From a virus: DNA of 64,000 nt. Under the pieces are notes generated by a model that was given only the letters and a program-made list of their open reading frames with translations, searched no databases and was not told where the DNA came from. Below are positions 40,333 to 64,000 of the stretch, in pieces. The position numbers were made by a program, and so were the translations under genes. Each line of letters starts with the position of its first letter. Position 1 is the stretch's first letter. The stretch covers positions 1-64,000 of IMG/VR virus record IMGVR_UViG_3300024520_000066. One strand, 5' to 3'.

Positions 40333-41832
40333 TTACGCTAATACGTAAGGGATAATTGATGCAGTACGAGATGGGTCATAAACCACTACTCCTAATTGAC
40401 ACCATTTGGTGATAGTACCACTATCTTCCAAAGTTCCCATATTCTCATTGTTGATAGCACCTGTGAAAGGATTTCTGAAACCATATTGGTATCCACGAAT
40501 CTCTTCAGCACCTTTAACTTGCACTTTTTGTATGTTTGGCTCTTCTGGAGTTCCAACATAGAAAATATCAAATCTGTAAGACTCAGCAACACCACTAGAT
40601 CCAGGGATTTTGATAGTGTTACGGATTTTGTCATCATAGAAGTCATCAACTTCTAATTTAACAGTTACTCCGTTTGGAGCCATATACTCTGTAAACTGGA
40701 ATCCAGCAGCCATTGCATTTGAATGCAATTCAGAGTTAGTGTTCTTAATTGTAGCTGGGTTAGTTCCAGGAGTTGACACATTTGCAGACCAACCTGAAGT
40801 TGTAGATAATACAGCTTTGTGGAACTCAGCAGCTCCTCTTTCACCTGTACGCAAGATAAATACTCGGTTGTTGAAACCTAATTTACCTTCTGACAATCCG
40901 AAAAGGATTTCTTCTAATAGCTCAATAGAGAACTCATTGTAGAAGTAAGTGTTAGACTGCTCCATTTGCTCACGGATACCAGAACCAATTTTAATGCTTC
41001 GTCCAGAAACATCTTTGTTGTGGTATTGACCATCAGCAGTACGGTTAGTTTTACCATACATTAAGAACTTGTTTTTGTAAAGAGAAAATTCTTGCTCTAC
41101 TAACCAGTCTTCGTATAATGCTAAAGCACCAAATACTTTTTTGTTACCATCTTTATCGACAACAGGAATACCCATTACAACTTTCTTGTTGGTAGCATCA
41201 CCAGGTAATTTGTGGTCGATACGAATAGTAGTCAACTCACCTCTCATAGAAACTGGAGTTACTCTACGAACACCACCAACTTCTCTAGAAAGACCTTTAC
41301 CTACAGGAGCAAACTCTTCACTGAATCTTTTTCCAGCTACTAATTCAGAACCAGGAATACCTGATCTATCTGAACCTGCAATCTCTGCAGTGTGAACCCA
41401 CTGAGATCCTGATGGATAACCATCATCCAATAATCTAATTGGATATACTTCATTTTTCTCACCTACGATGATTTCGCCTTTGAAGAACCATTGCTCACCA
41501 AAAGTTACTTGAAATTCTTGACCACCTTCACCGATGTTATTGTCACTACCTGTAACAGTTGAACCTTTGAAAGAAGCTTCCACTAAAGGAATGTTTCTGC
41601 GCGAACTACCAATAAGTTCCCAATAGAACTCATTATCGTTGTCCACCATTTTTGTCTCAAATTTAGCCAACATATTCTCCAAAGATTTACCTCTGTTGAT
41701 GGCTAACAATTTGATCATAGCATCATTAATCTTTGTTGGAGATGTCTTCCAGATAGCACCTAGAGTGTTCTCAGGATTAATCATACCAGCAAAGGCTTTT
41801 GCGTCAGTTACTTGGAACCTACCTAATTGCAT
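40333..41832 (-). CDS. crAss-like major capsid protein
   Basis: 499 residues, the size typical of crAss-like capsid proteins, which have an HK97 fold but little sequence similarity to classical HK97 phages. N terminus MQLGRFQVTDAKAF resembles the start of that family, and the fold regions KLLAINRGKSLENMLAKF (an N-terminal helix) and the beta-rich body fit. It has its own promoter (41869-41900) and terminator (40293-40319). The acidic scaffold-like gene directly upstream supports the assignment. This is one of two unrelated capsid genes in the window. Confidence 0.85.
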   Translation of the reverse strand: MQLGRFQVTDAKAFAGMINPENTLGAIWKTSPTKINDAMIKLLAINRGKSLENMLAKFETKMVDNDNEFYWELIGSSRRNIPLVEASFKGSTVTGSDNNIGEGGQEFQVTFGEQWFFKGEIIVGEKNEVYPIRLLDDGYPSGSQWVHTAEIAGSDRSGIPGSELVAGKRFSEEFAPVGKGLSREVGGVRRVTPVSMRGELTTIRIDHKLPGDATNKKVVMGIPVVDKDGNKKVFGALALYEDWLVEQEFSLYKNKFLMYGKTNRTADGQYHNKDVSGRSIKIGSGIREQMEQSNTYFYNEFSIELLEEILFGLSEGKLGFNNRVFILRTGERGAAEFHKAVLSTTSGWSANVSTPGTNPATIKNTNSELHSNAMAAGFQFTEYMAPNGVTVKLEVDDFYDDKIRNTIKIPGSSGVAESYRFDIFYVGTPEEPNIQKVQVKGAEEIRGYQYGFRNPFTGAINNENMGTLEDSGTITKWCQLGVVVYDPSRTASIIPYVLA

Positions 41833-41868
41833 AATTTTTAATTGTTTTGTGTGTCCTTTTTACTGACA

Positions 41869-41900
41869 CAAAGTTAATAAAGTTGTTATTCTATTTCAAA
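41869..41900 (-). promoter_or_regulatory. Bacteroidota-type promoter of the major capsid gene
   Basis: Minus-strand TTTG (41897-41900), 20 bases, then TAACTTTG (41869-41876): both boxes match the TTTG / TAnnTTTG consensus exactly. It overlaps the last codons of the scaffold-like gene and would give a leader of roughly 30 bases before the capsid ATG. Confidence 0.75.
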
Positions 41901-43007
41901 ATCCTTGAGATCTGACAACTTAAAATTAGAGTTGGTATCTTGACTACTTGTGTCAACAGTTCCAGACTCTGTAAAGTTAGCACCTCTCAGTAAATTTTCT
42001 ATGTTATTAGTGATCTTACTTTCAGCTCTACTTCCAAATACGCTGAAATCTTTAAGACCCTTAGTTAAGTAAAATAAAGCCTCCAATTTAATTCTAGATC
42101 CAATTGGGTCTGCCTTTTGTGCTTTTATAAAGGCATTCTCTTTATTTCCTAAATCCGTAGTAATTTGTTTGTATAACTCATCTTTTTGAGAATCTGTTAA
42201 TTCAATACTAGGGATTATTTCAGGAGTAGTAGAAATGAAGTTCTTAATATCATCAATACTTTTCTTCTCCTTATTTTTAGCTTCGTCTATGATTGCTTTC
42301 AATCTAGCTTCTTCTGATTTAATAAGACTATCTAATGCAAATTCAGCATCTTCAATATCTGTACCAGCATCTACGCTTCGTTGAGCCATAGCCTCAGCTC
42401 TTTCTTTATTGTATCCTTTTTCAAGGAAATCCTGTGCAATTGCAGTTAACCTGAATTTCACATTCTTTTCATCTTTGATAAACTCAGGCGTTACAGATTT
42501 AAGTTTATCAATAGTGTTTACTTTTTCAGCAACCTCAGCAACTGGCGCACCAGATTGTTGAGCTTCTTCAATTAATTTCTGTCTTTCAGTTAATTGTGAA
42601 TCAACTTGCTTTTTAATTGCTGCATTAAGATCCTCAAGTGAACGGATCGTTGTTACATCATCAAGTTCAGGTAAAACTCCTTTGGCTTTAAACTCGGCAG
42701 CTAGTTTAGAATAAAGCTGTTCAGTCTCATTCAGTTTAGGAGAGGAAGAATCACTGCCTTCTTTTCCATCAGCAGTTTTACCTGCCTGAACTTGATTTTT
42801 ATCCTTATTCTGATTAGCTACGCTCTCTTGATCCTCTTTTTTGGAATCATCACCATCAGTAATTTTTTTGTCGTTTGCATCATCAGATGCTGAAGGAGTA
42901 CCTTCTTTTTCAGCCTTCTCTTCTGGTTTCTCAATATCAACACCTTCATCAAAAAGATCAAGGGACGATGTGTCAAAATCCAAATCAGCTAGATTTAATT
43001 CTTCCAT
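41886..43007 (-). CDS. Scaffolding-like acidic protein
   Basis: 373 residues, very acidic at the N terminus (LADLDFDTSSLDLFDEG) with long Lys/Glu/Asp/Ser low-complexity (about 30-95), then charged helices. It sits directly upstream of the crAss-like major capsid gene, the usual position of the scaffold. Such proteins guide shell assembly and leave or are cleaved. Assignment is by position and composition, no motif. Confidence 0.7.
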   Translation of the reverse strand: MEELNLADLDFDTSSLDLFDEGVDIEKPEEKAEKEGTPSASDDANDKKITDGDDSKKEDQESVANQNKDKNQVQAGKTADGKEGSDSSSPKLNETEQLYSKLAAEFKAKGVLPELDDVTTIRSLEDLNAAIKKQVDSQLTERQKLIEEAQQSGAPVAEVAEKVNTIDKLKSVTPEFIKDEKNVKFRLTAIAQDFLEKGYNKERAEAMAQRSVDAGTDIEDAEFALDSLIKSEEARLKAIIDEAKNKEKKSIDDIKNFISTTPEIIPSIELTDSQKDELYKQITTDLGNKENAFIKAQKADPIGSRIKLEALFYLTKGLKDFSVFGSRAESKITNNIENLLRGANFTESGTVDTSSQDTNSNFKLSDLKDFEIE

Positions 43008-43036
43008 TGTTAAATAATTTTAATTCTCCTATCTTA

Positions 43037-43044
43037 CAAATCTA
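43037..43044 (-). promoter_or_regulatory. Possible -7 promoter box before the scaffold-like gene
   Basis: TAGATTTG on the minus strand, about 30 bases before the ATG, matches TAnnTTTG. The position 20 bases upstream reads ATGG, a poor -33 box, so this is weaker than the capsid promoter. Confidence 0.4.
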
Positions 43045-43093
43045 CGGAATTACCGCAAAAAAGTCCATTTAGTATTATAGCTAAAGAATGTAT

Positions 43094-43744
43094 TTATTTA
43101 AACAATTTTAATGTTTTATAGTATCCAATTGTTACAAATTTCTCAGAGTTTACACCTAATGTAACAATGCTTCCTTTTTTATTTTGTATCCCAAGAGACA
43201 CTCCTATTACAGGTGCTTGAGGGATTACTTGTTGTGCTGGTAATCCTAATTCTAATCCATAAACTAAAGATGCTTTTGGATATCTATACACAACCTCTGG
43301 AATGTATTTGAATTCTTTTTCTTTTATATTATAGTCAATACGGTATGCTAATAATGATCCGCGAGTTTTTGCATATAAATCAACTTTTACTATATCATTA
43401 TCAATAGCCACTTCATTATATTCTTTAATCTGAATAGACTCTAAATAAAGATTACGAGCGGAAATGCTGTCTTTTTCTTTAATAACTTGATCATACTTAT
43501 TCTTATATTCTTGATCAACTACAATCTCTACATCTCCTTTTATATAAACAGGAACCTCAATTATTTCTGGATCATAAATAGAATCATTATTATTATCAAT
43601 AATAACCACTCCGCTTGACTCCGTTGAGCCTGGTATAGAAATAGTTTTATCATCATAAATTGGTTTTGGCCTTGTGTTAAAATAAATCATAAATCCTAAA
43701 GAAACAGATAATCCTAATATTATATAATTTTTTATCTTTTCCAT
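43094..43744 (-). CDS. Membrane-anchored periplasmic protein, possible spanin-like
   Basis: 216 residues. Residues about 6-23 (NYIILGLSVSLGFMIYF) are a single N-terminal membrane segment without a cleavage site. A charged linker and a predicted coiled coil (KNKYDQVIKEKDSISARNLY) follow, then beta strands with an alternating aromatic pattern to the end. A membrane anchor, a periplasmic coil and a downstream position next to a two-TM protein fit the inner-membrane part of a spanin-type lysis system, but no outer-membrane partner is visible. It may belong to either phage, as it lies at the junction. Confidence 0.5.
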   Translation of the reverse strand: MEKIKNYIILGLSVSLGFMIYFNTRPKPIYDDKTISIPGSTESSGVVIIDNNNDSIYDPEIIEVPVYIKGDVEIVVDQEYKNKYDQVIKEKDSISARNLYLESIQIKEYNEVAIDNDIVKVDLYAKTRGSLLAYRIDYNIKEKEFKYIPEVVYRYPKASLVYGLELGLPAQQVIPQAPVIGVSLGIQNKKGSIVTLGVNSEKFVTIGYYKTLKLFK

Positions 43745-43756
43745 TATTTTTTTTTT

Positions 43757-43810
43757 AAAAGATTCAATAAATGTATTCGTAATTACGTAAATAAATTTAT
43801 TTAATCTTTT
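43757..43810. repeat. Nested AT-rich inverted repeats between lysis-like genes
   Basis: A 16-base imperfect inverted repeat (43757-43772 with 43795-43810, one mismatch) encloses the perfect 10-base palindrome CGTAATTACG (43778-43787). It fills most of the 87-base gap. It may be a bidirectional terminator-like structure or a recombination or protein site; AT richness limits its weight. Confidence 0.4.
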
Positions 43811-43831
43811 TTATTTATTCAATTCATTTTA

Positions 43832-44074
43832 CTACTTCTCTACTTTACCAAACAGTTTGTTTATTCCTGCGGTGAAAAATGTCTTAACCATATCTATTGC
43901 CTTATCTTCACTTATAGCAAAAATTACACCTGTATAAATAAGTAAACCTATCTGCCAAAGGCTTATTTCTCGTTTTAAGTCGATGAATAAATACATGAAT
44001 ATTAGTACTATTCCTGCGGCAAAAAGTATCAATCCTAATACTGTACTTATTTTGTTTGTTTTAAAATTATTCAT
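43832..44074 (-). CDS. Holin-like protein with two membrane segments
   Basis: 80 residues with two membrane segments (about 10-32 VLGLILFAAGIVLIFMYLF and 41-58 IGLLIYTGVIFAIS) and a basic, amphipathic C terminus. Size, topology and position after the fibre genes fit a small class II holin. No endolysin gene is found beside it in the window. Confidence 0.5.
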   Translation of the reverse strand: MNNFKTNKISTVLGLILFAAGIVLIFMYLFIDLKREISLWQIGLLIYTGVIFAISEDKAIDMVKTFFTAGINKLFGKVEK

Positions 44075-44110
44075 AATTTATATGTGTTATTGACCATTTA
44101 AAGTAGGTAT

Positions 44111-44794
44111 TTATATTATTTTAATTTTCAAAACAGATGTTATTAAGATATTTCCACTAGAGTCTTTGCCTGATGTTGTTAAATTATAATTTCCAACAGT
44201 AAAAGGATACGGCTCTGGTATTAAATTAGTATCCCCATTTACTGAATAGGGTTTTATTTTTTCTGTTCTTTCATGGACAACTAAACCACCTGTTTCTAAT
44301 TTAAAATCGAAACTTGTACATTGAGAGCATTCTTCAGTAGTCTTTAACCTTATATCGCTATCATTTGATAAGCTAAATGTTTTTTCAAATAAAAACCTAT
44401 CAATTTCCAAACCTAAACTGTCTGTTTGTATAATTGCAACAGGATTTGGGTAAAGACTATTATAATCAATAACGAGGTCTTTTAAATCAACTCCCATATA
44501 AGCGTTTACAACAAGTATTTCAGTATCCTTTATAGCTATAGTGTCATTAATAGCTTTAGGTACAACACCTGTTATTGCAACTTCAACATAATCTGGGAAT
44601 AATATTACATAAGAATCTATATCATTTGCTAAACAGTAGTTTATCCCGTCATCTTTAGCCTTTCTTTCAGTAGTTCTGTTTGGAAGTATACTATCTCCTA
44701 CTTTTGCTCTAAAGTAACCTTTCTGTACACTTTCTATTTGCTGTGAAAATGTGTACTGTGTAAGTAATAATAATAGTAATAATAGTTTTTTCAT
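44111..44794 (-). CDS. Secreted protein with signal peptide, 227 aa
   Basis: 227 residues. A Leu-rich signal peptide (MKKLLLLLLLLTQYTFSQ) ends with the flavobacterial-style S-Q cleavage. The mature part is beta-rich with one CSQC pair (about residue 156). No enzyme motif is recognised. It is the last of four consecutive proteins with Sec signals at the downstream end of the tail operon. Confidence 0.6.
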   Translation of the reverse strand: MKKLLLLLLLLTQYTFSQQIESVQKGYFRAKVGDSILPNRTTERKAKDDGINYCLANDIDSYVILFPDYVEVAITGVVPKAINDTIAIKDTEILVVNAYMGVDLKDLVIDYNSLYPNPVAIIQTDSLGLEIDRFLFEKTFSLSNDSDIRLKTTEECSQCTSFDFKLETGGLVVHERTEKIKPYSVNGDTNLIPEPYPFTVGNYNLTTSGKDSSGNILITSVLKIKII

Positions 44795-44824
44795 TATTCT
44801 GTTGCGTTTTTATTTTAATTGTTA

Positions 44825-47143
44825 TTAATAAATTGAATAAATAGCATTTAACGCGTTTTGATAATCTACCATCTCTGTGGGTGTCATATAACTTGGGATA
44901 ATGTGTAATGCTTTTATTTTAGATGTAAAAAATATACTACTCCCATATTGTCTTTTACCAATATAAAGCTCCCCAAAATTACCTCCAGCAAAAGCCGCTG
45001 TTTTGTTAATTTTGTCCGTTGCCCACGTACCCCCAGAAATACTAGCGGGCGCGCCTCTATTAACCCCGTTTTTAAAATTATATATTGCGTTTGCCGAATT
45101 ATCATAAGTAGCTGCTAAAATATAATTATTAGTAGTTGTTAAATCGCCCCAACCCGATGAAATATAACACGCTCCAACCGTTAACCCCTCCGTTGAAAAG
45201 CTCCAATCTGGAGCGTTTATATCATTTGCCACTGGAGTTCCAACGGATTTAGAGCAAATACGAAGTCCCGATGTTGACTGTAAATTTTCTATAACTACAA
45301 AAATTGAAAATCCAGCTGTAAGATTTAAACTTTCATGATGCGTAACTCTTAAAAAACTTGCACCATCAAATTGTATTCCTCCGCTTACCCAATTAGGTTT
45401 TGCTGCGTTGTTTGCAATTCTTAAAAAAGGACTATTAAAATTAATACTTTGGTCATGTATTATAGAAATTCCGTTAACATCTTCAAATCTTTGTGAATTT
45501 TCATCTATAATCAAACCCCCGTCAATATAATTTATAGGTGTTAAGCTTCTAAAGCCCGTTATTTTAGACAAAGTTATTAAATCAGCATTGTGCCAGTCGA
45601 CCGCGTCCGCGGTTGCTAGTCTTGTAGCAAATAAAATATCATTCCCATCTATTATAAAAGATGGGTATTGCGCGCCGTATTGTAAAACTTCTGACTCCCA
45701 GCTTAAAGTAGGCGTAAATCCAACGACTTTTTTTAATATATCCCACGTAATACCATCGTCATCACTGGATATTAAATATCCCTCCATTCTTTGGTCTGAA
45801 AAATCTTTAAATCTATTTACATTCGTTATAGAATATAATTTGTCTGATGTTGAATCGTAAGTAACTTGGTATTTTACATTTCCACCGTGTAATTTTACTA
45901 TATTCTGAGTGCTTGATATGGTAGAAGTCGACGGATTTAAAGGAACCCATGTAACATCCATATATACACCGTGGTTTGAAGCTGGCGTCTGTTCTAATCT
46001 CATAAACAAACGTAAGTTCCCAGAGCTTAACTCCACGATAGACGCCTCTAAAAAACCTTTACTTACAGATTGCCCCGCCGCTGGAGGGTATTTTGTATTT
46101 GGTGTATTAGAATATATTTCAGAATTTGAAAAAGTAGTTCCATTAAATGCAACTTTATTACTAAAAGACCAGTTCCCAGCGTCCTCTAAATCTGTTAAAT
46201 CTGCGAAAACTAGACAAGCCTCGTAAATACCACCAAAAGACCCACTACTTTTTACAGCCTCAATCCCAGCGACTAAAAAACCATCCTTTATAATAACATT
46301 ATTTGGTGATTTGCTCCAGCCAATATATGCGCCTGCGGGCGCAGCCAAAACAGTTGTAACGGCACTCCATGTTAATCCATCATCTGTTGATTTTGAAAGT
46401 GTAATATTTCCGTTTTCTTTATCCGTACCTAATAAATATATGTTTCCATTATATTCAAAAATAGAAGCCCAAAACATATCCACAACATCCGCCGCTTTTG
46501 TAAAATTATTTGTTTCTAAAGGAGCATCTGTGTAATATATAGATGTAGTTCCCGAAACTGCATAATCAGAACCAGCCCCATAATAATCATGGGCTACTAA
46601 ATACCTTCCTGTACTTGTTTTGAATATAACTGGCGAACCTAAAAAGATATTTGATGGATTTGCTGATTCTACAACTGTAATACCAAAAGGCAAGGCTGTT
46701 AAATCTACAAATGGATTTATATGTATTTGTTTAACCCAATATTCAATTCTGCCATTGCTATTCTCAACCTCTAAATAAATATCTGTATTAGCCTGAAAAT
46801 CTTCTCCTTTTATATTTATTGCGCCTGTTATTTCTGGCAAACTTGGAGCGTTAACAAGTAGACGAGCCTTTCCGCCGTTAATAGAACCCGTTACCGTGTA
46901 AATTAAACTGGTGTTTGGCGTTGTCATGTTGCAATATGTAACCAAAGGATTATTTAAAGGTATTTCTGTTCCTGTGTAAATTGATGAACCGCCACTGTTT
47001 ACTTGAGATAAAGGAACGCCGTTTATATTAACTGCCCCTAAAAAATCAACAGTACCTAGATAATCATAATCAGAGTACATTTTCTTTTGGGAAAAAGAAA
47101 TTGTTGTTATAAGTATCGTTATTAATGGAATTATTTTTTTCAT
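44825..47143 (-). CDS. Signal-peptide fibre protein with Asp-box repeats and LamG-like C terminus
   Basis: 772 residues. N-terminal signal peptide (MKKIIPLITILITTISFSQ). Two Asp-box (BNR) motifs, DDGLTW at about residue 255 and DDGITW at about 463, indicate a sialidase-like beta-propeller. The C-terminal ~180 residues resemble a LamG/concanavalin sandwich and end MTPTEMVDYQNALNAIY, similar to the end of the 852-aa fibre. Carbohydrate binding or hydrolysis on the host surface is likely. The signal peptide is unusual for a phage fibre. Confidence 0.65.
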   Translation of the reverse strand: MKKIIPLITILITTISFSQKKMYSDYDYLGTVDFLGAVNINGVPLSQVNSGGSSIYTGTEIPLNNPLVTYCNMTTPNTSLIYTVTGSINGGKARLLVNAPSLPEITGAINIKGEDFQANTDIYLEVENSNGRIEYWVKQIHINPFVDLTALPFGITVVESANPSNIFLGSPVIFKTSTGRYLVAHDYYGAGSDYAVSGTTSIYYTDAPLETNNFTKAADVVDMFWASIFEYNGNIYLLGTDKENGNITLSKSTDDGLTWSAVTTVLAAPAGAYIGWSKSPNNVIIKDGFLVAGIEAVKSSGSFGGIYEACLVFADLTDLEDAGNWSFSNKVAFNGTTFSNSEIYSNTPNTKYPPAAGQSVSKGFLEASIVELSSGNLRLFMRLEQTPASNHGVYMDVTWVPLNPSTSTISSTQNIVKLHGGNVKYQVTYDSTSDKLYSITNVNRFKDFSDQRMEGYLISSDDDGITWDILKKVVGFTPTLSWESEVLQYGAQYPSFIIDGNDILFATRLATADAVDWHNADLITLSKITGFRSLTPINYIDGGLIIDENSQRFEDVNGISIIHDQSINFNSPFLRIANNAAKPNWVSGGIQFDGASFLRVTHHESLNLTAGFSIFVVIENLQSTSGLRICSKSVGTPVANDINAPDWSFSTEGLTVGACYISSGWGDLTTTNNYILAATYDNSANAIYNFKNGVNRGAPASISGGTWATDKINKTAAFAGGNFGELYIGKRQYGSSIFFTSKIKALHIIPSYMTPTEMVDYQNALNAIYSIY

Positions 47144-47156
47144 TTTAATTGTATTA

Positions 47157-49445: not shown

Positions 49446-49446
49446 A

Positions 49447-52005: not shown

Positions 52006-52007
52006 GT

Positions 52008-52277
52008 TTACTGTGTTTGTATATAAAATTTTAAATTACTTTCTGTAGTATATGGTAAGGCGGTTACTTCAGCAATTATATATCTACCATTTAAAACCCC
52101 TCTAATAATATTACCAACCGCAATAGTTGCACTAGCAACTCCTTTTTGATCTACTAAAAAACCATCAATACGCGCTTCTAAACCTAATACAGAAGTACCA
52201 ACTGTAATATTAATTGGTAATTGAGATCCAGATTCAAACATTATATTTTCTGAACTACTTATTGTTATTGTTGCCAT
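52008..52277 (-). CDS. Small tail protein, 89 aa
   Basis: 89 residues, beta-rich. Its C-terminal half shares a pattern (RY-I/V-V/I then V-x-ALP then hydrophobic strand) with the 105-aa protein two genes upstream, suggesting a duplicated domain. It is 2 bases from the fibre gene. Likely a baseplate or fibre-adaptor component. Confidence 0.6.
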   Translation of the reverse strand: MATITISSSENIMFESGSQLPINITVGTSVLGLEARIDGFLVDQKGVASATIAVGNIIRGVLNGRYIIAEVTALPYTTESNLKFYIQTQ

Positions 52278-52279
52278 AA

Positions 52280-52609
52280 TTAACTAAAAGATTTATTTAC
52301 ATTAATTCGACCATAAAAATCTCTTTGGCCATTAGCAACTCTTATTAATGTAGCATCATAAACCACACTTCTATTACCCCAATCATCCGGATTAAAACGC
52401 CAGGTAATACTTTGACCATCTATTGTTAAACCATCACCAACTGTATATTCTTTTAATGTGGTATAATCGTAATTAACACCTAGTTTAACAACACCATTAA
52501 TACTCCAGGTATCACCTTCTGATAAGGTGAATGTGATACTGCAAATTTGGTTTTGATGCGCTACTATATTTATTTCTTGAGCATCATCTAAATTTATTGT
52601 GGTTTCCAT
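52280..52609 (-). CDS. Small tail protein, 109 aa, beta-rich
   Basis: 109 residues; the pattern of a short beta-sandwich (ICSITFTLSEGDTW, VKLGVNYDYTT) is like N-terminal domains of baseplate upper proteins (BppU) of siphoviruses. Packed 2-3 bases from neighbours on both sides. Function inferred from context. Confidence 0.6.
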   Translation of the reverse strand: METTINLDDAQEINIVAHQNQICSITFTLSEGDTWSINGVVKLGVNYDYTTLKEYTVGDGLTIDGQSITWRFNPDDWGNRSVVYDATLIRVANGQRDFYGRINVNKSFS

Positions 52610-52612
52610 ATT

Positions 52613-52930
52613 TTATATATAAGCGTTTACTGCTAATTGCACTTTTGTACTATCATTAATATCAAAAGGTAAGGCTATAACCTTACCTACTACATAACGG
52701 GTATCTGTATCTAACCATGCTTCAAATTTATCTCCTACCTCTAAAGCTAAAAGGTCTATATTACCAGAAGCTTTTTCAACAAAATATAAACCTATCTGTA
52801 TTTTTTTATAAGCTAAAATTAAACCTTCTAAATACGCAAAATTAGCGTTGGTTTTTCCAGCCCATGTTCTTGCATCATCACCTGTTTCTGAATTTGGTGA
52901 AACACCTAAATCTATATTTTGTATTGCCAT
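52613..52930 (-). CDS. Small tail protein, 105 aa, paralogous domain
   Basis: 105 residues. N-terminal part contains WAGKTNANFAYLEGLI, a motif commonly seen near the start of tail fibre and baseplate proteins. The C-terminal half (RYVVGKVIALPF) resembles that of the 89-aa protein at 52008-52277. Probably adaptor between tail tip and fibres. Confidence 0.6.
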   Translation of the reverse strand: MAIQNIDLGVSPNSETGDDARTWAGKTNANFAYLEGLILAYKKIQIGLYFVEKASGNIDLLALEVGDKFEAWLDTDTRYVVGKVIALPFDINDSTKVQLAVNAYI

Positions 52931-52935
52931 GTCTA

Positions 52936-53076
52936 TTATTTTGTTTCATCTGCAAAACGCGTAGTGCTATCTGCAAATATTAATGTACTATCAGCTGTAA
53001 AAGCATTATTATTAACACTAGGCAACTGCAACTCATTTATAAGTATTTTAAAACCTATTTTATGTTTTTCTGCCAT
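52936..53076 (-). CDS. Very small tail protein, 46 aa
   Basis: I start it at MAEKHKIGF, base 53076, directly after the 925-aa gene stop. An in-frame Met 24 codons upstream would overlap that gene and add an unlikely Leu/Gln-rich leader. It has repeated ADST and FADS units at the C terminus. Not recognised. Confidence 0.5.
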   Translation of the reverse strand: MAEKHKIGFKILINELQLPSVNNNAFTADSTLIFADSTTRFADETK

Positions 53077-53077
53077 G

Positions 53078-55855: not shown

Positions 55856-57906
55856 TACGATTGCCTTAATTGTTCTTTTAAACTACGCTCATAACTTATT
55901 ACAATATCGCTACCACGTAAAACTGTTTGAGGGATAAATACCTGTGGCTGCGAACTACCCTCACCCATTAAACCATATAACTTTTTTTGTTGCGCCTGGT
56001 TTAAAACCAACTCGCCAGAATTTACACGCGCTAATATTTTATCTCCAAAAAAAGAAGAACCACCAACTACACCACCATCTGCAAAAGCAGGTAAATTACC
56101 ACCACCTCCAAAATTAGATGCTAAACCTTTTAACAAACTACCTACCACTACCAAACCAACACCAGCCGCTATAGCAGCCAAAGGATTTGTAAAAGATAGT
56201 TTTACAGCCTTCATTGTAATACCTATTTTTATAGCTGCTTTTCCTAACTGTGTAGCTAAATCTCCTAGGGTAGATAAAAGCAAACCACCTACCGCACCAA
56301 AACCAATATTACCCTGCGCTATACCAGCTATAACATTAGCAAAACCATCAATAAAACTATTACCAATGTTTTGTAATATACCTGAAGAAGCATCTTGAAA
56401 ATCTAACAACCTAGATTGAAATGCGATTAAATTTGCATCTATTATTTCATTCTCAACGGGCAAAGATTCTGAAATACCAGCTAAAGGTGATGTTGTTAAA
56501 ACTGTACCACCTTGCGCTAAACCCGTTGTGTTTAAAGCAGATACTTGTTTACGACCTGTTAACCCTTGTTTTTTAGCTTTTTCAATTGCGTTGGTTATTG
56601 CTGAAGCATCTACATTTTCTTCTAAAAAAGCTATTTTTTTTCGTTGTGTAACATTATCAATAGCATCGTTAAAATTTTTATCAATACCATTAGTTAAATT
56701 TTTCCAGTCGTTACTAATATTATCTGTAAAAGTTGAAAAATTACTAAAACCCTCTGAACTTGCTTTTTTAATGATAGCTGGCAACTCTGAAATATTACCA
56801 GTAAGCACTGCTTTAAAAACACTTCCTATAGTTTTAAAACCAGTTACAAAATTATCTACAAAACCTTGAATGATGCTTTTAAGGGCTTCAAAAGCAAATT
56901 TACCTATCTCAAAAAGGTTTTTAAATTGCTGCACAACCAACTCAACTGCAGTTCTAAAAAGAGTGCTTTCATTATATAAATCAATAAAATAGTTTGCTAT
57001 ATTTATTAAGGTTTGTTTTATAGGTGCCCAATTTTTATAAATTACAACACCAACCGCTGTTAAACCGGCTACTATTAACCCTATTGGCCCCGTAAGTAAT
57101 GCTAAACCTGTACCAATTGCCGGTAATATAGTTCCTGCCAATGCTAATAATGGACCAATAGCAGCGGCAACACCACCGAGTATTACGATCCATTTTTTGG
57201 TTTCTGGAGATAGCGATTGAAATCTTTGCAAAATACCATTTAAGCTTTCAAATAAAGGGGTTATATATGGAATAATAATATCTCCAATAGATGCAAAAGC
57301 TTGTTGAATATTATCGCGCAAGGTACTCATCCTACCACTAAAAGTATTTGCTTGTCGCTCTATGCTTCCTGCAAAATTAGTATTACCTATGTTTTGTAAG
57401 TATTGCGAAATTTCTTCCGAATTTTTTTTAACAGTAGTTGTTACTCCTTGAAACGTAAAAGAAACATTATCGCCTTGCGATTTTGCTTTAATACCAAACT
57501 CTTTTAAACGCTCGAACTCACCTACTGCAGCATCAGCTACAGCTTCAATCATTTGGTCTAAACTTTTACCTAATGCGCTTGCTGTATTACCATAACTTGT
57601 TAGTGATGCTATTGATGGATCTAAACCTAAGTTTTTTAATTTTATAAAAGCACTTGCAACTTCTTCCATTTGAAATGGGGTTGTAGCTGCAAATTCTTTT
57701 ATTTGAGCAAAAGCAGAAGATGAAGATGCCGAATTACCTTGAAAAACCGTATCTAAAGAAGTTTTAAGAGTTTCCATATCAGCAGCAGCACTTATAGCTT
57801 GCGCACCTATACCCAATAAAGGCAATGTTACACCAATACTTAAACCTGCACCAATTTTTTGCATACCAGCACCTACTTTAGTTAACTGCCTATTAGCGTT
57901 ATCCAT
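55855..57906 (-). CDS. Tail tape measure protein
   Basis: 683 residues from the ATG at 57906. Start region GAGMQKIGAGLSIGVTLPLLG and long helical segments, a hydrophobic stretch at about 230-275 (LAGTILPAIGTGLALLTGPIG), and the C-terminal DGGVVGG and ARVNSGELVLNQAQ motifs are typical of tape measure proteins. By the usual ~1.5 Å per residue rule the tail would be near 100 nm. About 20 coding-like codons continue upstream in frame (LSQINILFKADLKSF) without an ATG, so the true start is uncertain. Confidence 0.85.
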   Translation of the reverse strand: MDNANRQLTKVGAGMQKIGAGLSIGVTLPLLGIGAQAISAAADMETLKTSLDTVFQGNSASSSSAFAQIKEFAATTPFQMEEVASAFIKLKNLGLDPSIASLTSYGNTASALGKSLDQMIEAVADAAVGEFERLKEFGIKAKSQGDNVSFTFQGVTTTVKKNSEEISQYLQNIGNTNFAGSIERQANTFSGRMSTLRDNIQQAFASIGDIIIPYITPLFESLNGILQRFQSLSPETKKWIVILGGVAAAIGPLLALAGTILPAIGTGLALLTGPIGLIVAGLTAVGVVIYKNWAPIKQTLINIANYFIDLYNESTLFRTAVELVVQQFKNLFEIGKFAFEALKSIIQGFVDNFVTGFKTIGSVFKAVLTGNISELPAIIKKASSEGFSNFSTFTDNISNDWKNLTNGIDKNFNDAIDNVTQRKKIAFLEENVDASAITNAIEKAKKQGLTGRKQVSALNTTGLAQGGTVLTTSPLAGISESLPVENEIIDANLIAFQSRLLDFQDASSGILQNIGNSFIDGFANVIAGIAQGNIGFGAVGGLLLSTLGDLATQLGKAAIKIGITMKAVKLSFTNPLAAIAAGVGLVVVGSLLKGLASNFGGGGNLPAFADGGVVGGSSFFGDKILARVNSGELVLNQAQQKKLYGLMGEGSSQPQVFIPQTVLRGSDIVISYERSLKEQLRQS

Positions 57907-58009
57907 TTGGGTGCTAAAGCTTTTTAAATCGGCTTTAAATAGAATATTTATTTGACTTAAACTTGCCCTTCAGTTTTGGTTTTAGGATTAATACTTTATC
58001 TTTACTTTT

Positions 58010-58102
58010 ATGATTGAATGGTATTACATTCCTGCTTTTATTATTATTGGTTTTTTAGGATTTGTTTTTAACGACTACATCCGTAAGAACCGTTTTAAGT
58101 AG
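58010..58102 (+). CDS. Possible 30-aa membrane micro-protein, opposite strand
   Basis: On the plus strand, against all surrounding genes, ATG to TAG gives MIEWYYIPAF… then a hydrophobic stretch (IIIGFLGFVF) and a basic tail (DYIRKNRFK). This is a textbook single-pass small membrane protein. Its stop overlaps the 3' end of the tRNA. It may be real or chance; no clear promoter was found. Confidence 0.4.
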   Translation: MIEWYYIPAFIIIGFLGFVFNDYIRKNRFK

Positions 58103-58174
58103 CGTTGGTAGGATTCGAACCTACGACCTCGAGAAAAGGATTCTCGCGAGCTAACCAAACTGCTCTACAACGCG
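58100..58174 (-). tRNA. tRNA-Arg (anticodon CCT)
   Basis: Folds as a complete cloverleaf: D stem GAGC/GCTC with G18 G19, anticodon stem CGAGA/TCTCG with loop ATCCTTT (anticodon CCT, reads AGG), variable loop AGGTC, T arm GTAGG-TTCGAAT-CCTAC, acceptor GCGTTG/CAACGC. T8, A14, A21, T33, C56 and A58 are present. Odd features are a C1-T72 mismatch, T at position 37, and no encoded CCA. Positions 8-10 (TAG) are also the stop codon of the chaperone extension. Confidence 0.8.
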
Positions 58175-58512
58175 ATTTTATTTTTTTTATCTAAGGCATC
58201 AAATTCGGCTTTAAGTTGCTCTTGTGTTTTTTTAGGTTGTTTTAAATCTTTTTTCTCCCAATCAAAAGGATACCATTTTTCTACGGTTAAATTTTTATCT
58301 TTAGATTCAAAATTAAAAGCTGATGTAAAAGCTATTAATCTTATTTGTGTCCATTTTTCTCGTTTTTTGGTTTCATAACCTCTGGTTATATTATCTAATT
58401 GCCGCCAATCTAAAGAATCAAAAGTTTTAATAGTTAACCCAATTTCTCCACAAACAAAGGCTTCTAAATCATCGAACGTTAGCGAAGTATTATTTACTCC
58501 GCTTGGTTCGAC
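58165..58512 (-). CDS. Frameshifted extension of the tail assembly chaperone (GpGT-like)
   Basis: An open frame of 115 codons without its own ATG, in the -1 frame relative to the upstream chaperone. It begins at the GGGAAAG heptamer and ends TAG at 58167-58165. It reads VEPSGVNN… through helical, charged residues (DWRQLDNITRG, KREKWTQIRL) to NKIAL. The length from the slip site (348 bases) is an exact multiple of three, and size and position match the T part of lambda G-T. It should be made only as a fusion with the 120-aa protein. Confidence 0.85.
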   Translation of the reverse strand, partial: VEPSGVNNTSLTFDDLEAFVCGEIGLTIKTFDSLDWRQLDNITRGYETKKREKWTQIRLIAFTSAFNFESKDKNLTVEKWYPFDWEKKDLKQPKKTQEQLKAEFDALDKKNKIAL

Positions 58513-58856
58513 TTTCCCACAGCTTGGGTATCTTCTTCTGTATTTGGTTGTGCGCCTTTAAAAACATCAAACATAGGTTGCAATATAGATTCGCCATTTA
58601 TGTTTAAATGATCTACAATATCATCCGGATCTATGTTAATAGATTTTTTACTTGCTGCACGAATGGCACTTAAAATAAATACACCAATAACTTCTTGACT
58701 TTCTAAAGTGCCAGCATCTATAACCGCAATCTTTTTTTGAAAGTCTGCTATAAGTTTGAGTTTATAATGATTCATAAACTCCCTCTGAAACTTAATTCCA
58801 AATCTAAATGGATATTCTTTATTAAATAAAATAATACTTTTTGCTGTGGTACTCAT
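58494..58856 (-). CDS. Tail assembly chaperone (GpG-like)
   Basis: 120 residues, helical and acidic, directly after the tail tube gene and before the tape measure region, the standard place of the tail chaperone. Near its end, GTG GGA AAG TCG contains the heptamer GGGAAAG in the right phase (G GGA AAG), identical to the lambda G/GT slippery site. It binds the tape measure protein during tail assembly in lambda-like phages. Confidence 0.85.
   Translation of the reverse strand: MSTTAKSIILFNKEYPFRFGIKFQREFMNHYKLKLIADFQKKIAVIDAGTLESQEVIGVFILSAIRAASKKSINIDPDDIVDHLNINGESILQPMFDVFKGAQPNTEEDTQAVGKSNQAE
58512..58518 (-). promoter_or_regulatory. Slippery heptamer for -1 ribosomal frameshift
   Basis: GGGAAAG (minus strand) positioned as X XXY YYZ in the chaperone frame. 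Slippage of one base leads into the 115-codon extension. The normal chaperone terminates five codons further on (TAA, 58496-58494). Confidence 0.85.
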
Positions 58857-58873
58857 TTTTTTATTCTTTTATA

Positions 58874-59278
58874 TTAAGCTACTCTAGCTACTGTTAAATC
58901 TCCATTACCCTTAAAGCTAAAACTACAAGTTACGTACTCATCGTTTGTTGCATTGGTATTAAATGATTCGATATAAGCATTACCACTGTAAACAACATCA
59001 CCAGAAACACCTGTAGTTAGAGTAACTGCCACTTCTGTTTTGTTTATCGCCAGGGTTGATAATGTAAATAAATCTTCTTGGGTAGTACCATCGTTATCAT
59101 ATAATGCTTCTACTGGAATATTCCAAGATGAAGAACCAGGTGATACTAATTTACCAGAAGTATCTTTTGATGCTACTTCTTTAAAGTCTGTTTGGAATGA
59201 TAAATCTGCAGATACTTCGTGAAATATCTCTTTACCACCCACTGTAATACGCATATTTACGCCTTCTTTTAATGCCAT
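58874..59278 (-). CDS. Major tail tube protein
   Basis: 134 residues, beta-rich, with the order characteristic of TP901-1/lambda-type tail tube proteins: N-terminal MRITVGGKEIFHE strand, then S-F-Q-T-D-F and a central NIPVEALYD, ending SCSFSFKGNGDL-like strands. Immediately upstream of the chaperone. Multimerises to form the tail tube. Confidence 0.8.
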   Translation of the reverse strand: MALKEGVNMRITVGGKEIFHEVSADLSFQTDFKEVASKDTSGKLVSPGSSSWNIPVEALYDNDGTTQEDLFTLSTLAINKTEVAVTLTTGVSGDVVYSGNAYIESFNTNATNDEYVTCSFSFKGNGDLTVARVA

Positions 59279-59284
59279 GATTTC

Positions 59285-59650
59285 TTATTTTTTTATGTTA
59301 AATGTTTGTTCTATGTAAAATTCGTCTTGATCGTTAAATACAGGCTTCCCACCTTGTATTAAATAAATATTATTACTTGCCTTAATAGCATCTGTTACTT
59401 TATCTGCTATTGCTATCGCTTTATTATAAGTTGAAGCAAAAGCGTTTATTACTACTGTAAACTCATAAATACCATCTTTACTAGGTTTTGTTTCATAACT
59501 TGTATAATAATTTATAAAAGAATCTCCTTCATTTGGTGTTGCAATTAATGGGTAAATACTATCTGGTCCATGAGATAACAATGTAGTAAGAGGTGTGTGT
59601 AATGCTAAATCTGCATAAACCAATTCTGATATTTGTAACCACTTACTCAT
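59285..59650 (-). CDS. Tail completion protein, DUF3168-like
   Basis: 121 residues with the pattern of DUF3168: LVYADLALHTPLTTLL, then IYPLIATPNEGDSFINYY, then VVINAFASTYNKAIAIADKV. Such proteins (similar to SPP1 gp17) cap the tail end that joins the head. It overlaps the HK97 gp10-like gene by 4 bases. Confidence 0.8.
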   Translation of the reverse strand: MSKWLQISELVYADLALHTPLTTLLSHGPDSIYPLIATPNEGDSFINYYTSYETKPSKDGIYEFTVVINAFASTYNKAIAIADKVTDAIKASNNIYLIQGGKPVFNDQDEFYIEQTFNIKK

Positions 59651-60108
59651 TTGCTTAATCTGTTTATTTGTTTTTGCACGTATGCTGATACTTTAGCTTC
59701 TGCATCGGCTGTTACTTTTCCTTTTGTTTGTTTGTAAGCTCTATTCATAAAAGGATTTGGTTTTTGATTTATGGTTCCACCCTCTACAAAAGCACCATAC
59801 CAACCATCATGTTTCCCTTTTACCCTAGGTCCTACAACTAACACTGCATCAACTTTATTACGTTTAGCTACTATTTTGCCAATTGATTTTTTTAAGTTTC
59901 CCGGCTGTATTAATTTCCTGGTACGTTTACCACTTTGTAAATGTGGTTTTTTACTTACCGGAACTGTACCTCTTGCTGCTTTAACCGTTGGTTCTGCTAC
60001 TACACGTAATACCTTTAAAAGTTCTGAACGTTTTACCTTATCTGGTAACTGCTTTATTTTTGCTCGTAATAGATTAAAACCTTGTATTTCTATTAAGTCT
60101 TTTGCCAT
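59647..60108 (-). CDS. HK97 gp10-like head-tail joining protein
   Basis: 153 residues, basic. Residues IQGFNLLRAKIKQLPDKV and RVVAEPTVKAARGTVP match the helical opening of HK97 gp10-type proteins; GPRVKGKHDGWYGAFVEGGT (about 93-112) is the conserved core and KPNPFMNRAY follows. Overlaps the neighbour by one base. Part of the neck assembly. Confidence 0.8.
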   Translation of the reverse strand: MAKDLIEIQGFNLLRAKIKQLPDKVKRSELLKVLRVVAEPTVKAARGTVPVSKKPHLQSGKRTRKLIQPGNLKKSIGKIVAKRNKVDAVLVVGPRVKGKHDGWYGAFVEGGTINQKPNPFMNRAYKQTKGKVTADAEAKVSAYVQKQINRLSK

Positions 60109-60446
60109 TACTCGCGTTTACTACATTTTAATTGGATGTATTCTTTATGTCCTACATACCCTACACTATAAATATTATAAGTTTCACCTAAATGATTTAT
60201 ATATAAATCCTGTATTTGTTTTAACACCAAAGCCGGATTATACTTTATAGTGTATCGCCTAACATTTAAGGCTAAAATTTTACCATCTTCTTCTTCATTA
60301 CCACTTACATCTTCAACTTTTGCCCATACTTCATTAAACAGTATTTCTTGATATGTTTTTTCACCGGTACTACTATTAGTGCGTTGGCGTTCTATAATCC
60401 GAATACGTTGGTTTAACTGCCCTGTATAAACTTTTATATTTGCCAT
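60108..60446 (-). CDS. Head closure / head-tail adaptor protein
   Basis: 112 residues fitting the phage head-tail joining family (SPP1 gp16-like): GQLNQRIRIIERQRT at the N terminus, then VWAKVEDVSG and RYTIKYNP. The short beta-barrel closes the head after packaging. Overlaps its neighbour by one base. Confidence 0.8.
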   Translation of the reverse strand: MANIKVYTGQLNQRIRIIERQRTNSSTGEKTYQEILFNEVWAKVEDVSGNEEEDGKILALNVRRYTIKYNPALVLKQIQDLYINHLGETYNIYSVGYVGHKEYIQLKCSKRE

Positions 60447-60468
60447 TTAACAAATTACGGTTTTGTTT

Positions 60469-61095
60469 TTAAATTGTTTTACGATAATATTTATAAGGCT
60501 CTAACTTTATTTTAGCTGCAGTTAAATAACCTTTACTTTCCATATTATTACGTATGTTATAGTTTTCGTGCATTAAAAGTTTAATACCTTGCAATAAACC
60601 TTTTGGCACTTTATTTTCTGGATAACCTACAGTAACCTCAAAAGCTACCGCATCTGTTTTGGTTTCAATTAATTCTGGTAAATCTGAAATATCTTCTATG
60701 TTTTTATAATGAATTACAGTTGCATATTTATCTACTGGTAACAATTCTAAAAAGTCTGATAAATCAGTTATTTCTTCTACTTCATTAGTTGCAGCTACAT
60801 CTTGTAAAATAATAGTTTCTGAAGCGGTTTTATAAGTTAGTTTTGAAACTTCTGTTATAATTTGCTCTCTAAATTCAAAATCTTGATCTAACCATTTATT
60901 ACTTTTTACTATGTATTTTCGCTGGCGTATATTTGTGCTGGTATAACTTTCTGCTTCATCAATAGCTGCTTCAATACAATCTAAAATTATATCATCATCA
61001 AAAGTGCCTAAATCTTCCATTTTAAGCTGCTTTTTTGCTGCTTCTAACGATAATATTTCTGGGGATGTATGTGCTACTGGAATATAAAAGTCCAT
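60469..61095 (-). CDS. Head-tail connector, gp6-like
   Basis: 208 residues. SLEAAKKQLKMEDLGTFDDD and the helix IEAAIDEAESYTSTNIR (residues about 45-60) are characteristic of HK97 gp6-type connector proteins that form a ring under the portal. Its C-terminal region ending in RKTI is basic. It follows the small 55-aa gene. Confidence 0.8.
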   Translation of the reverse strand: MDFYIPVAHTSPEILSLEAAKKQLKMEDLGTFDDDIILDCIEAAIDEAESYTSTNIRQRKYIVKSNKWLDQDFEFREQIITEVSKLTYKTASETIILQDVAATNEVEEITDLSDFLELLPVDKYATVIHYKNIEDISDLPELIETKTDAVAFEVTVGYPENKVPKGLLQGIKLLMHENYNIRNNMESKGYLTAAKIKLEPYKYYRKTI

Positions 61096-61099
61096 GTTT

Positions 61100-61267
61100 C
61101 TATTTTACAAATTCTGCATAATGCGATTCTACTAACTCTTTAGCTATAAGCTCATCAAATTCTGCTTCATCACCTATACTATATCCTAAGTTAAAACTAC
61201 CTGTTGGTGATAACAGAAATTTAATTTTAAGTGTTTTAGGTGTTTTTACAGTTTGTTTTTTTGCCAT
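61100..61267 (-). CDS. Small head-region protein, 55 aa
   Basis: ATG at 61267, TAG at 61100: 55 residues, MAKKQTVKTP… FNLGYSIGDEAEF… ELVESHYAEFVK. The GY-x-x-GD-x-A-x-F and ELVE-x-x-YA pattern resembles small proteins frequently encoded between the major capsid and gp6 genes in siphoviruses. Basic start, acidic end. Function unknown. Confidence 0.7.
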   Translation of the reverse strand: MAKKQTVKTPKTLKIKFLLSPTGSFNLGYSIGDEAEFDELIAKELVESHYAEFVK

Positions 61268-61280
61268 CGTTTTTGTTTTA

Positions 61281-61320
61281 AAAAAAAAGGGGGTTTGGCT
61301 TTCAACTCAAAACCCCTTTT
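61281..61320 (-). terminator. Rho-independent terminator after the HK97 capsid gene
   Basis: On the minus strand AAAAGGGGTTTT, loop, then AAACCCCCTTTTTTTT: a G/C-rich stem extended by A-T pairs and a long U run. It lies 26 bases after the capsid stop and should give partial termination before the connector genes. Confidence 0.85.
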
Positions 61321-61345
61321 TACAATTAACCAACCAAACTAATTA

Positions 61346-62656
61346 TTAAACTATGAAATCTTTAGATACTGCAAAGCCTGCGCCTTGACGTATCAATATA
61401 TCTAAGAACTGGTTTACTGTAATTTCAATTAAACCAGCTTTCTTTTGAGTGATATTATCTACTACCATATCATAGAATCCCCACTCACCAATTAAGACAT
61501 TAGAGAAATCTCCGAAAATAGCAGCATGTAAATTTGTACCAGAACCTTTTGTTAAGTTTCCAGGAACCATTGTATTTGCAGTTGCAGCATAGCTATTAAT
61601 TGTACCATCTGCAGCCATTAGGTAATTCCAGTTACCAGAACCTGCATGTGTGGTTTGTTTTAAGAAACCTTTTAAACCTGGTGTGATTAAATAATTCATA
61701 TTTGCACCACCAGCGTTAGCAGCTAATACAGCAGTTTCCATTTCTACAAGTTGTGCCCAAGTTGGTGCAATACCATTAGTAGCACCTGTTAAAACATAAA
61801 CATCTGAATTGTTTAATATACCTTCTGGTTGCCCTGAAGCACCAGATCCATTTATTACAGCTGTATCAATAGCTATTTCAGTGATTTTTTTAATATCTGC
61901 AGCAGTTAAAGCTTCTAAATCTGGTGTAGATTGTAGGATATTTTGTAAAGAAATTGGCACTGTAGCTGATAATCTTTTAGGGCTCATAGTTTTTGTACCA
62001 TAAGCAGTTTTAGAAGGGCTTACAGTAGCAATTTCAGTTTCCCAAGTAGCAGCAATACCACCACCATTAGTAACCATTTTAATATCTCCTGTTAAACCTC
62101 TCATGTATCTAGCACCTAAACGCTCTGCAACCGGCATTGGTCTTAACGCATCAATAATACCACCATAGTTAGTATCTACTAAATTAGCACCATAGTTACC
62201 AGAATCTTGTGATACTGTTTGCCCTGCTGCTCTTTTTTCTTTGTTTGCACCGTTTGGCACAGCAATACCTTCTATAGCTACACCAGCGTTACGCGCTTCT
62301 TTTAGCATTTCTTGGTGATATTCTAACTCTACACCTTCTAGATTACCATTTGGTAATTGTGAGCGTAATGCTTTATGCAAAGAGTATGATGCAACCATTT
62401 TTTGTTGCTCTCTTTTTTCTGAAGTACCTAAGCTTTCGCCAGATAAGGAAGCTATACGTAATTCTGCAGCTTCATCAGCTACTGCGTTACGTATTTGATT
62501 ATCTAAATCTTCAATTTCTGAAGTTAGGGTGTTGAATTTTGAGCGTTCTTCAGTAGAAAACTCTTTAGTTTCAGAAGCCTTACGTACTTCTAACATTGTT
62601 TTTTGAGCTTCGATTTTCTCTGTTTTCGCTGCTCTTAATTCATCAGATTTTTTCAT
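61346..62656 (-). CDS. Major capsid protein, HK97 family
   Basis: 436 residues. The first ~110 are a charged coiled coil (delta domain; RSKFNTLTSEIEDLDNQIRN) expected to be cut away by the prohead protease. The remainder carries typical HK97 elements: SGNYGANLVDT, PVAERLGARYM, ATWETEIATVSPSKTAYG, ALTAADIKKITEIAID and GQPEGILNN. The protease gene directly upstream and the connector series downstream confirm it. This is the second, unrelated capsid gene of the window. Confidence 0.9.
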   Translation of the reverse strand: MKKSDELRAAKTEKIEAQKTMLEVRKASETKEFSTEERSKFNTLTSEIEDLDNQIRNAVADEAAELRIASLSGESLGTSEKREQQKMVASYSLHKALRSQLPNGNLEGVELEYHQEMLKEARNAGVAIEGIAVPNGANKEKRAAGQTVSQDSGNYGANLVDTNYGGIIDALRPMPVAERLGARYMRGLTGDIKMVTNGGGIAATWETEIATVSPSKTAYGTKTMSPKRLSATVPISLQNILQSTPDLEALTAADIKKITEIAIDTAVINGSGASGQPEGILNNSDVYVLTGATNGIAPTWAQLVEMETAVLAANAGGANMNYLITPGLKGFLKQTTHAGSGNWNYLMAADGTINSYAATANTMVPGNLTKGSGTNLHAAIFGDFSNVLIGEWGFYDMVVDNITQKKAGLIEITVNQFLDILIRQGAGFAVSKDFIV

Positions 62657-62657
62657 T

Positions 62658-63314
62658 TTATTTGTTTTTATTTATTAGGAATTGAGCTTCATAAACATCG
62701 AGTGTTTCTGCTCGGTTTTCATTAATTATAATGGCTCGTTTTACTTCAATTTCGTTGGTTTTAAAAGCATCTAAACTGCGTTTCGCTACGCTTGTATCTT
62801 GGTACGCTGGATAGGTTACTGGCGATACATCGTAAAGGCGTTTTAGTTTTGTTATTTGGCGTAATGGTAGTTCCCCATCACGCTCAATCCAATTTTGTTC
62901 ATCTATAGAAAAACCAAATGAAGATTGTGATACGTTGCCTAAGCGTATGTTTTCTTCTAAGTCTTTTGCATACGATACGTTTGGTGTTTCGTAACGGTAT
63001 TTTAAACCAGTTTCATCTACAGATAGTTTTAAAGTTCCTGTACCGTTTACAGATCGTGCTAATACCATATCTGGGTTGTGGTTAAAAAGGCATCTAACAT
63101 CATCGTTTAAAACACCATCTAAAGCACCTGGTAATATTTCTTCACGAAACCAATCGCCTATACTGGTTGTTTTATTAAATTTTAACGCATAACCTTCTAT
63201 TCCTGAATTTGCATCTGCGCTTCCTTCTGCACGCTCTTGTATTGCTACTGGTGCTTCAACAAAACGACGTTCTGCACCATCAATTTTTAGTATATAATCT
63301 TTTTCTTCAGCCAT
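62658..63314 (-). CDS. Prohead protease, HK97 (S78) family
   Basis: 218 residues. The likely catalytic His79 is in LFNHNPDMVLAR, and the Ser in QSSFGFS (131 or 132). The opening (IEGYALKFNKT, then FREEILPGALDG) is the standard family start. This serine protease cleaves the capsid delta domain during maturation. One base separates it from each neighbour. Confidence 0.9.
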   Translation of the reverse strand: MAEEKDYILKIDGAERRFVEAPVAIQERAEGSADANSGIEGYALKFNKTTSIGDWFREEILPGALDGVLNDDVRCLFNHNPDMVLARSVNGTGTLKLSVDETGLKYRYETPNVSYAKDLEENIRLGNVSQSSFGFSIDEQNWIERDGELPLRQITKLKRLYDVSPVTYPAYQDTSVAKRSLDAFKTNEIEVKRAIIINENRAETLDVYEAQFLINKNK

Positions 63315-63315
63315 T

Positions 63316-64000
63316 TTATTGTTGTGTATTAATTTCTTTTATTTTAGCATCTATTTGCTCTAAAGTTTGGGTGTTTACAGGTGTAAGCGGCTCATCTAAA
63401 CCTGTTATATTATTTCTATCTAATAATTGACGTACTTCATTACGTGTTAAAACCCCTGCAAAAATTAGTTTACTCCAATAATCTGCTTGTGAAACTTTAT
63501 CGGCACTTAAAAGCGATTCTGTATTATATTTTGTGTAGATGCGTTTAGCTTTTTCGGATGTAGAAAATAACTTTCGATCGCATTCTTGCTGGAACTTTAT
63601 AGCCCAAGGTAATATAGAATCGCTTACGTGCTGACGTTCTAAACTTTCTGAAATTGAGTTATTTATATCTTTATTGTTTTTTAGTTTTTGAGGGCTTATG
63701 TTTAAAAACCTTGCAACCTCATTAATACCATGTTCTGATGCTAAAAGGAATTGCGCTTCTTGTGGGGTTATTTTTAAGTGCTCAAATTTTGAAGCTTCAT
63801 CTATAACCGGTACGGTCCATTTAGATTTTTGCGCAAACATTTCTGATAAGGCTTTACTGTAACGTGCTTTTGCATCTGGATCCATACTTTTAGAGGTGGT
63901 TAATACACCTGTACCAACACCTTTACCATCATAATATTCGCTTGCAAATTCTTGGGATGCTAAACTTACACCTAAGCTTTTTGCTGCGTGTGTAACTACT
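63316..64000 (-). CDS. Portal protein, HK97-like, C-terminal part (cut by window edge)
   Basis: The frame is open to the right edge, so the Met at 63885 is internal and the N-terminal part is missing. The visible part includes GVGTGVLTTSKSM, a helical segment, IDEASKFEHLKITPQE and FLNISPQKL, all matching the C-terminal region of HK97-type portals (the clip-to-wing region, …GVPP…L). Position directly before the prohead protease confirms it. Forms the ring through which DNA passes. Confidence 0.85.
   Translation of the reverse strand, partial: VVTHAAKSLGVSLASQEFASEYYDGKGVGTGVLTTSKSMDPDAKARYSKALSEMFAQKSKWTVPVIDEASKFEHLKITPQEAQFLLASEHGINEVARFLNISPQKLKNNKDINNSISESLERQHVSDSILPWAIKFQQECDRKLFSTSEKAKRIYTKYNTESLLSADKVSQADYWSKLIFAGVLTRNEVRQLLDRNNITGLDEPLTPVNTQTLEQIDAKIKEINTQQ

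Follow-up and report, generated by a model that had tools for sequence, protein, structure and literature searches.

The IMG/VR virus record IMGVR_UViG_3300024520_000066 is 65,744 bp long, is classed as linear and carries no end repeats. The window, that is the whole stretch of DNA analysed here, comprises its positions 1-64000. Open reading frame calling reproduced the gene coordinates of a preliminary description, which had placed a crAss-type capsid gene and an HK97-type head-tail set side by side, and the family searches bear this out (PF23898, PF05065 and PHROG matches). On the evidence of its sequence, the record consists of two partial genomes joined together, one from a marine crAss-like phage and one from an unrelated long-tailed phage (siphovirus) of the same bacterial group. 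All genes of the window given coordinates below lie on the minus strand, and the names 'scaffold', 'spanin', 'holin' and 'endolysin' are taken from position and form unless a family match is cited.

Identity of the two halves

The left half (1-43744) is a crAss-like phage segment with early genes on the plus strand up to 5589 and late genes on the minus strand. By tblastn it is colinear with the 90.6-kb IMG/VR contig G002, running from position 73790 of that contig down to about 27490, and a colinear late-gene block of the kind that marks Crassvirales membership is thus present (43.7 kb against G002). The major capsid gene (40333-41832, 499 amino acids (aa)) matches PF23898 (Crass_capsid, E 1.7e-156) and phrog_11589 (1e-100), and with these matches its identity as a crAss-type capsid is certain. 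A scan of IMG/VR with this capsid gave 44 related loci at 50-95% aa identity, most of them at 81-95% and the remainder at 50-67%; identity to the capsids of Steigviridae is 48-50%. Adjoining the capsid gene upstream is a 373-aa scaffold-like gene (41886-43007), which is found in 42 of the loci and is 75% identical at the aa level to those of L003 and L004. Pfam and PHROG searches with the protein gave no informative match, and its position, as in crAss phages, suggests a scaffold role. At the DNA level the crAss side is 71-84% identical to L003-L022, with blocks of similarity to the crAss loci beginning at about 30 kb and stopping between 42.8 and 43.76 kb.

The last crAss gene before the junction encodes a 216-aa protein (43094-43744) that matches phrog_25644 (unknown function) and may act as a spanin. 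It is 63% identical at the aa level over its full length to the protein of L030 and L036, where the gene is also directly upstream of the scaffold-like gene, and it is crAss-native. An origin from the siphovirus was considered and rejected, as eight prophage stretches held no match and the best matches are crAss loci. The protein is a mosaic: residues 1-160 are nearest to the L030/L031 lineage (68-85% per segment) and residues 161-216 to L003 (57%), a pattern that points to recombination between marine crAss-like phages where the lysis and capsid genes meet. In close crAss relatives an endolysin-like gene, a holin gene (PF05105) and long tail-fibre genes lie upstream of the spanin-like gene. 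The lysis cassette upstream of scaffold and capsid nevertheless varies among relatives with capsids more than 80% identical, with differing holins, amidases and small genes (variable cassettes were seen in L007, L014, L017-L019, L023 and L026), and some relatives do not have the spanin-like gene.

Searches of the whole record with the portal and the large terminase (TerL) of cr108_1 found neither gene, in agreement with the preliminary description, whereas the five long relatives examined all have both. The crAss portal is likewise missing from shorter relatives whose contigs end upstream of the capsid. A review describes TerL, portal, capsid and primase as conserved throughout Crassvirales (PMC10136315), and the absence of the first two therefore means that the crAss part of the contig is not complete; it is a fragment effect and not an argument against a crAss-like left half. 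The 772- and 762-aa genes of the right half, which by size could have been the missing portal and TerL, were rejected on account of their signal-peptide-like starts, the lack of a family match and the empty direct search of the record. Portal and TerL had been expected close to the capsid, with the crAss-like genome interrupted between scaffold and portal. This proximity is found in the distant relatives L039, L041 and L046, where the portal ends 1.1-2.7 kb upstream of the capsid gene and both genes are near the scaffold gene. In the close long relative G002/L007, however, about 16.7 kb separate the capsid gene from the end of the portal gene upstream, with the tail-fibre and lysis genes in between and TerL farther out, and in cr108_1 and DAC15 it is at least 10 kb from the capsid. 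The break is supported but does not part two neighbours: it falls inside the lysis cassette, whose place in close relatives is between the tail-fibre genes and the scaffold gene.

The right half (43832-65744) is of a different kind. Its 52.6-65.7 kb portion is colinear with a Flavobacteriia siphovirus type known from phi39:1 and from prophages of Aquimarina, Flavobacterium and Mesonia. The HK97-type head-tail block (58494-64000) encodes a tail chaperone-like protein, the major tail protein (58874-59278), connectors, the major head protein (61346-62656; PF05065, E 7.7e-21; phrog_617, 4e-52), the head maturation protease (62658-63314; phrog_80) and the portal (63316-64542; 63% identical to G011 and 35% to the annotated phi39:1 portal). 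With these matches the HK97-type head and tail genes are certain; the set had been called complete in the window, whereas the portal gene runs past the window end to 64542. Next comes the tail module (52008-57906), with the tape measure (55855-57906; phrog_1716), a 925-aa tail-tip protein and small tail proteins. Both gene orders that speak for phi39:1-type membership are therefore present, namely HK97-fold capsid, protease and portal in order, and tape measure followed by tail tip and then fibre and lysis genes. Among isolates, Cellulophaga phage phi39:1 matches best, at 30% for the capsid and 30% for the tail-tip protein. A search of genomes with a terminase alignment gave ten Flavobacteriia relatives, all ten of which encode the tail-tip protein, so that it is matched in all 11 genomes or records with the siphovirus TerL (these ten and one virus record); a genome scan with an alignment of the siphovirus capsid gave no matches. 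The IMG/VR contig L047 shows one mismatch in 9,758 bp over 55987-65744 and runs on into TerL.

Between the tail module and the last gene before the junction is a tail-fibre/host-recognition region of four genes (44111-52005; 227, 772, 762 and 852 aa) with signal-peptide-like N-termini and an FN3 domain, placed as in phi39:1 and strain-specific. The N-terminus of the 852-aa protein matches G011 and an Allomuricauda prophage. The 227-, 772- and 925-aa proteins had no relatives in the viral contigs searched, and hence the search yielded no further copy of the segment at 44-56 kb.

Position of the boundary

The preliminary description had offered three gaps for the break, and comparison with relatives of both phages places the boundary best in one of these, an AT-rich gap of 87 bp (43745-43831). 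DNA homology to the crAss loci reaches as far as 43760, which is 16 bases ahead of where the spanin-like gene starts. A siphovirus-type gene ends at 43832, so that the change from one phage to the other lies within the gap. The gap at 43008-43093 is excluded because the next gene (43094-43744) is crAss-native. The gap at 44075-44110 is disfavoured because the gene before it (43832-44074), which encodes a hydrophobic membrane protein of 80 aa, has a siphovirus-prophage homologue in matching position: the protein is 35-36% identical at the aa level (E 2e-11) to that of a 76-aa gene just past the last tail-fibre gene of a Mesonia aquimarina prophage. The order in that prophage is tail tip, small genes, a 938-aa fibre gene, the 76-aa membrane gene, small genes, an amidase gene (PF01510) and a spanin-like gene. 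The 80-aa gene was not found among the crAss loci; most plausibly it opens the lysis cassette of the siphovirus, and its product may be holin-like. The gap also contains an imperfect inverted repeat (arms 43757-43777 and 43790-43810). Its predicted hairpin is unremarkable against shuffled sequence (z -1.4), and we have set the repeat aside as evidence because it is no stronger than the shuffles.

Codon usage was compared with models trained within the record, each gene being left out of its own model. The score was positive (crAss-like) for every crAss gene of more than 70 codons and at most 0.002 for every siphovirus core gene, and models trained on relatives gave the same switch between the halves. 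Codon usage is intermediate over 43.8-49.4 kb, where the 80-, 227- and 772-aa genes are crAss-like or intermediate.

Origin of the join

From these data we consider it highly probable that the record is a chimeric metagenome contig joined by misassembly, a natural hybrid being less likely; the likelihoods that we attach to this and to the other explanations are judgements, not computed values. Chimeric assembly had been put forward as the most conservative explanation and is supported here, in that the halves match separate references and both genomes are cut. The two halves are colinear with separate references, which is the viralFlye criterion for a potentially chimeric contig; viralFlye reported 81 contigs of this class among the metaFlye assemblies of ALOHA_VIROME (PMC8862349). 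Here the references are, unlike in those cases, relatives and not the same strains, except for L047, and the judgement is made from sequence. Both genomes are truncated in mid-cassette at the join, which also favours a chimera. The crAss side stops without endolysin, holin, tail-fibre genes, portal or TerL, and the siphovirus side stops after the first lysis gene, where the Mesonia prophage continues with the amidase and more genes.

The sampling of relatives points the same way. No independent IMG/VR contig with the junction, its hairpin or the DNA of the 80-aa gene was found, in a search that may omit records very near the window. The junction is 1,913-1,999 bp upstream of the crAss capsid gene, and assemblies of related crAss-like phages often break off shortly upstream of this gene: of the 44 relatives, 21 have a contig end at 1.8-5.3 kb on its upstream side, against 10 with one downstream. 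The contig of L024, 51.7 kb long, stops 1,958 bp upstream. Furthermore, L047 is a contig of this siphovirus strain with siphovirus sequence only, and codon usage separates the crAss genes from the siphovirus core genes. In the model that we infer, a piece of an ordinary marine crAss-like phage genome (from 1 to about 43.76 kb) would have been fused, during assembly or library preparation and within 43745-43831, to a piece of an unrelated phi39:1-type siphovirus (about 43.8 to 65.7 kb), a type also found as Flavobacteriia prophages. As to the trigger, strain variation beside the variable tail-fibre/lysis region, or the AT-rich gap itself, is a guess.

Several observations weigh against a misassembly, most of them being what would be expected if a crAss-like phage and a siphovirus had co-infected one flavobacterial cell and undergone illegitimate recombination in their lysis cassettes, leaving both head-tail modules on one DNA. 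The join is intergenic on both sides, is co-directional and links the functionally matching lysis cassettes of the two phages, as a selected module exchange would. No long common sequence able to explain a misjoin was seen. The adjoining spanin-like gene is itself a natural mosaic in a cassette often swapped among crAss relatives, so that natural recombination does act here, and L047, which ends at 55987, short of the junction, would equally fit a fragment of a real hybrid. The mosaic shows crAss-crAss recombination at this place, but not that exchange reaches an HK97 siphovirus. When the siphovirus proteins were compared with the 44 crAss loci only fibre-type domains matched, the crAss proteins had no match in 3 siphovirus loci, and there is no second example of such a recombinant in either set. 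A hybrid would hold two capsid systems and yet, within the sequence of the record, neither crAss portal nor TerL, with no recognised endolysin near the join, and the codon usage of its halves is still sharply different. Together with the failure to recover the junction elsewhere, this makes a natural recombinant distinctly unlikely. We regard as quite improbable a real hybrid genome, joined in the lysis cassette, in which a single replicating DNA molecule carries both of the unrelated head modules.

Because the 80- and 227-aa genes have crAss-like codon usage, the edge could to some extent be sought more to the right. The fibre and lysis genes from the 80-aa to the 772-aa gene might have been exchanged recently between the two phages, an identical module in both genomes then bridging the misassembly, with the true edge at up to about 49.4 kb. 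The marked modularity of crAss tail-fibre and lysis genes would suit such a history, but the prophage homologue of the 80-aa gene and the absence of the 227- and 80-aa genes from every crAss relative make this form of chimera unlikely. Two adjacent elements in a host chromosome, a siphovirus prophage beside an integrated crAss-like element, or a concatemer of two phages, are extremely improbable. The siphovirus type is known as prophages in Flavobacteriia, but no bacterial genes occur at the junction and both elements are cut internally, not at an attachment site. The Mesonia prophage has an integrase-like gene (named by sequence resemblance) about 3 kb past its homologue of the 80-aa gene, and nothing similar is present here; integration is also not known to be usual for crAss-like phages. 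Neither of the alternatives named in the preliminary description, adjacent elements and a natural recombinant, thus has strong positive support, and we keep both as minor readings beside chimeric assembly.

Were the record taken at face value, it would point to fusion between crAss-like phages and siphoviruses and to crAss-like phages that can possess two capsid systems, and both the taxonomy of phages and the prediction of their hosts would be distorted. If the record is artefactual, marking it as such prevents its entry into reference sets. The halves retain their value separately, the one as a marine crAss-like fragment and the other as a tie to a family of flavobacterial prophages. What deserves further attention is the boundary region, a genuine hot spot at which crAss-like phages exchange modules.

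Further features and comparison with known phages

On the crAss side, a 529-aa protein (22623-24212) has a long Ala/Gly-rich stretch that gives a local G+C peak of 0.42 at 23-24 kb. In the siphovirus tail operon, a tRNA-Arg (CCT) gene (58099-58174; ARAGORN; Rfam RF00005, 52.6 bits) is found in an odd place for a tRNA, between the 120-aa chaperone-like gene (58494-58856) and the tape measure. After the chaperone-like gene an open stretch in another frame (57907-58493) ends before the tape measure; it is consistent with a G/GT-type programmed frameshift, as a candidate only, with no slippery site located. In the siphovirus relative L049 the HK97 capsid gene (10001-11305) has an in-frame stop near its middle, for which a sequencing error, a pseudogene or a recoded codon might account.

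The nearest named crAss-like records are Steigviridae/Asinivirinae such as cr108_1 and DAC15 (order Crassvirales). The left half differs from the named Crassvirales in that its capsid is only about 50% identical and in that portal, TerL, holin and endolysin are missing, because the contig leaves the crAss genome before reaching them. It shares with them the PF23898 capsid family, the late gene order from lysis gene through scaffold to capsid and onwards, and the early/late strand switch. The right half differs from phi39:1 (28.8 kb) in its capsid, portal and tail-tip proteins, which are about 30-35% identical, and in its fibre genes, which are not common to both; unlike that type, it stops past the first lysis gene and before TerL. 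Its gene order is that of phi39:1 and of the related prophages in Aquimarina, Flavobacterium, Mesonia and Tenacibaculum, namely portal, protease, capsid, connectors, tail, tape measure, tail tip, fibres and lysis.

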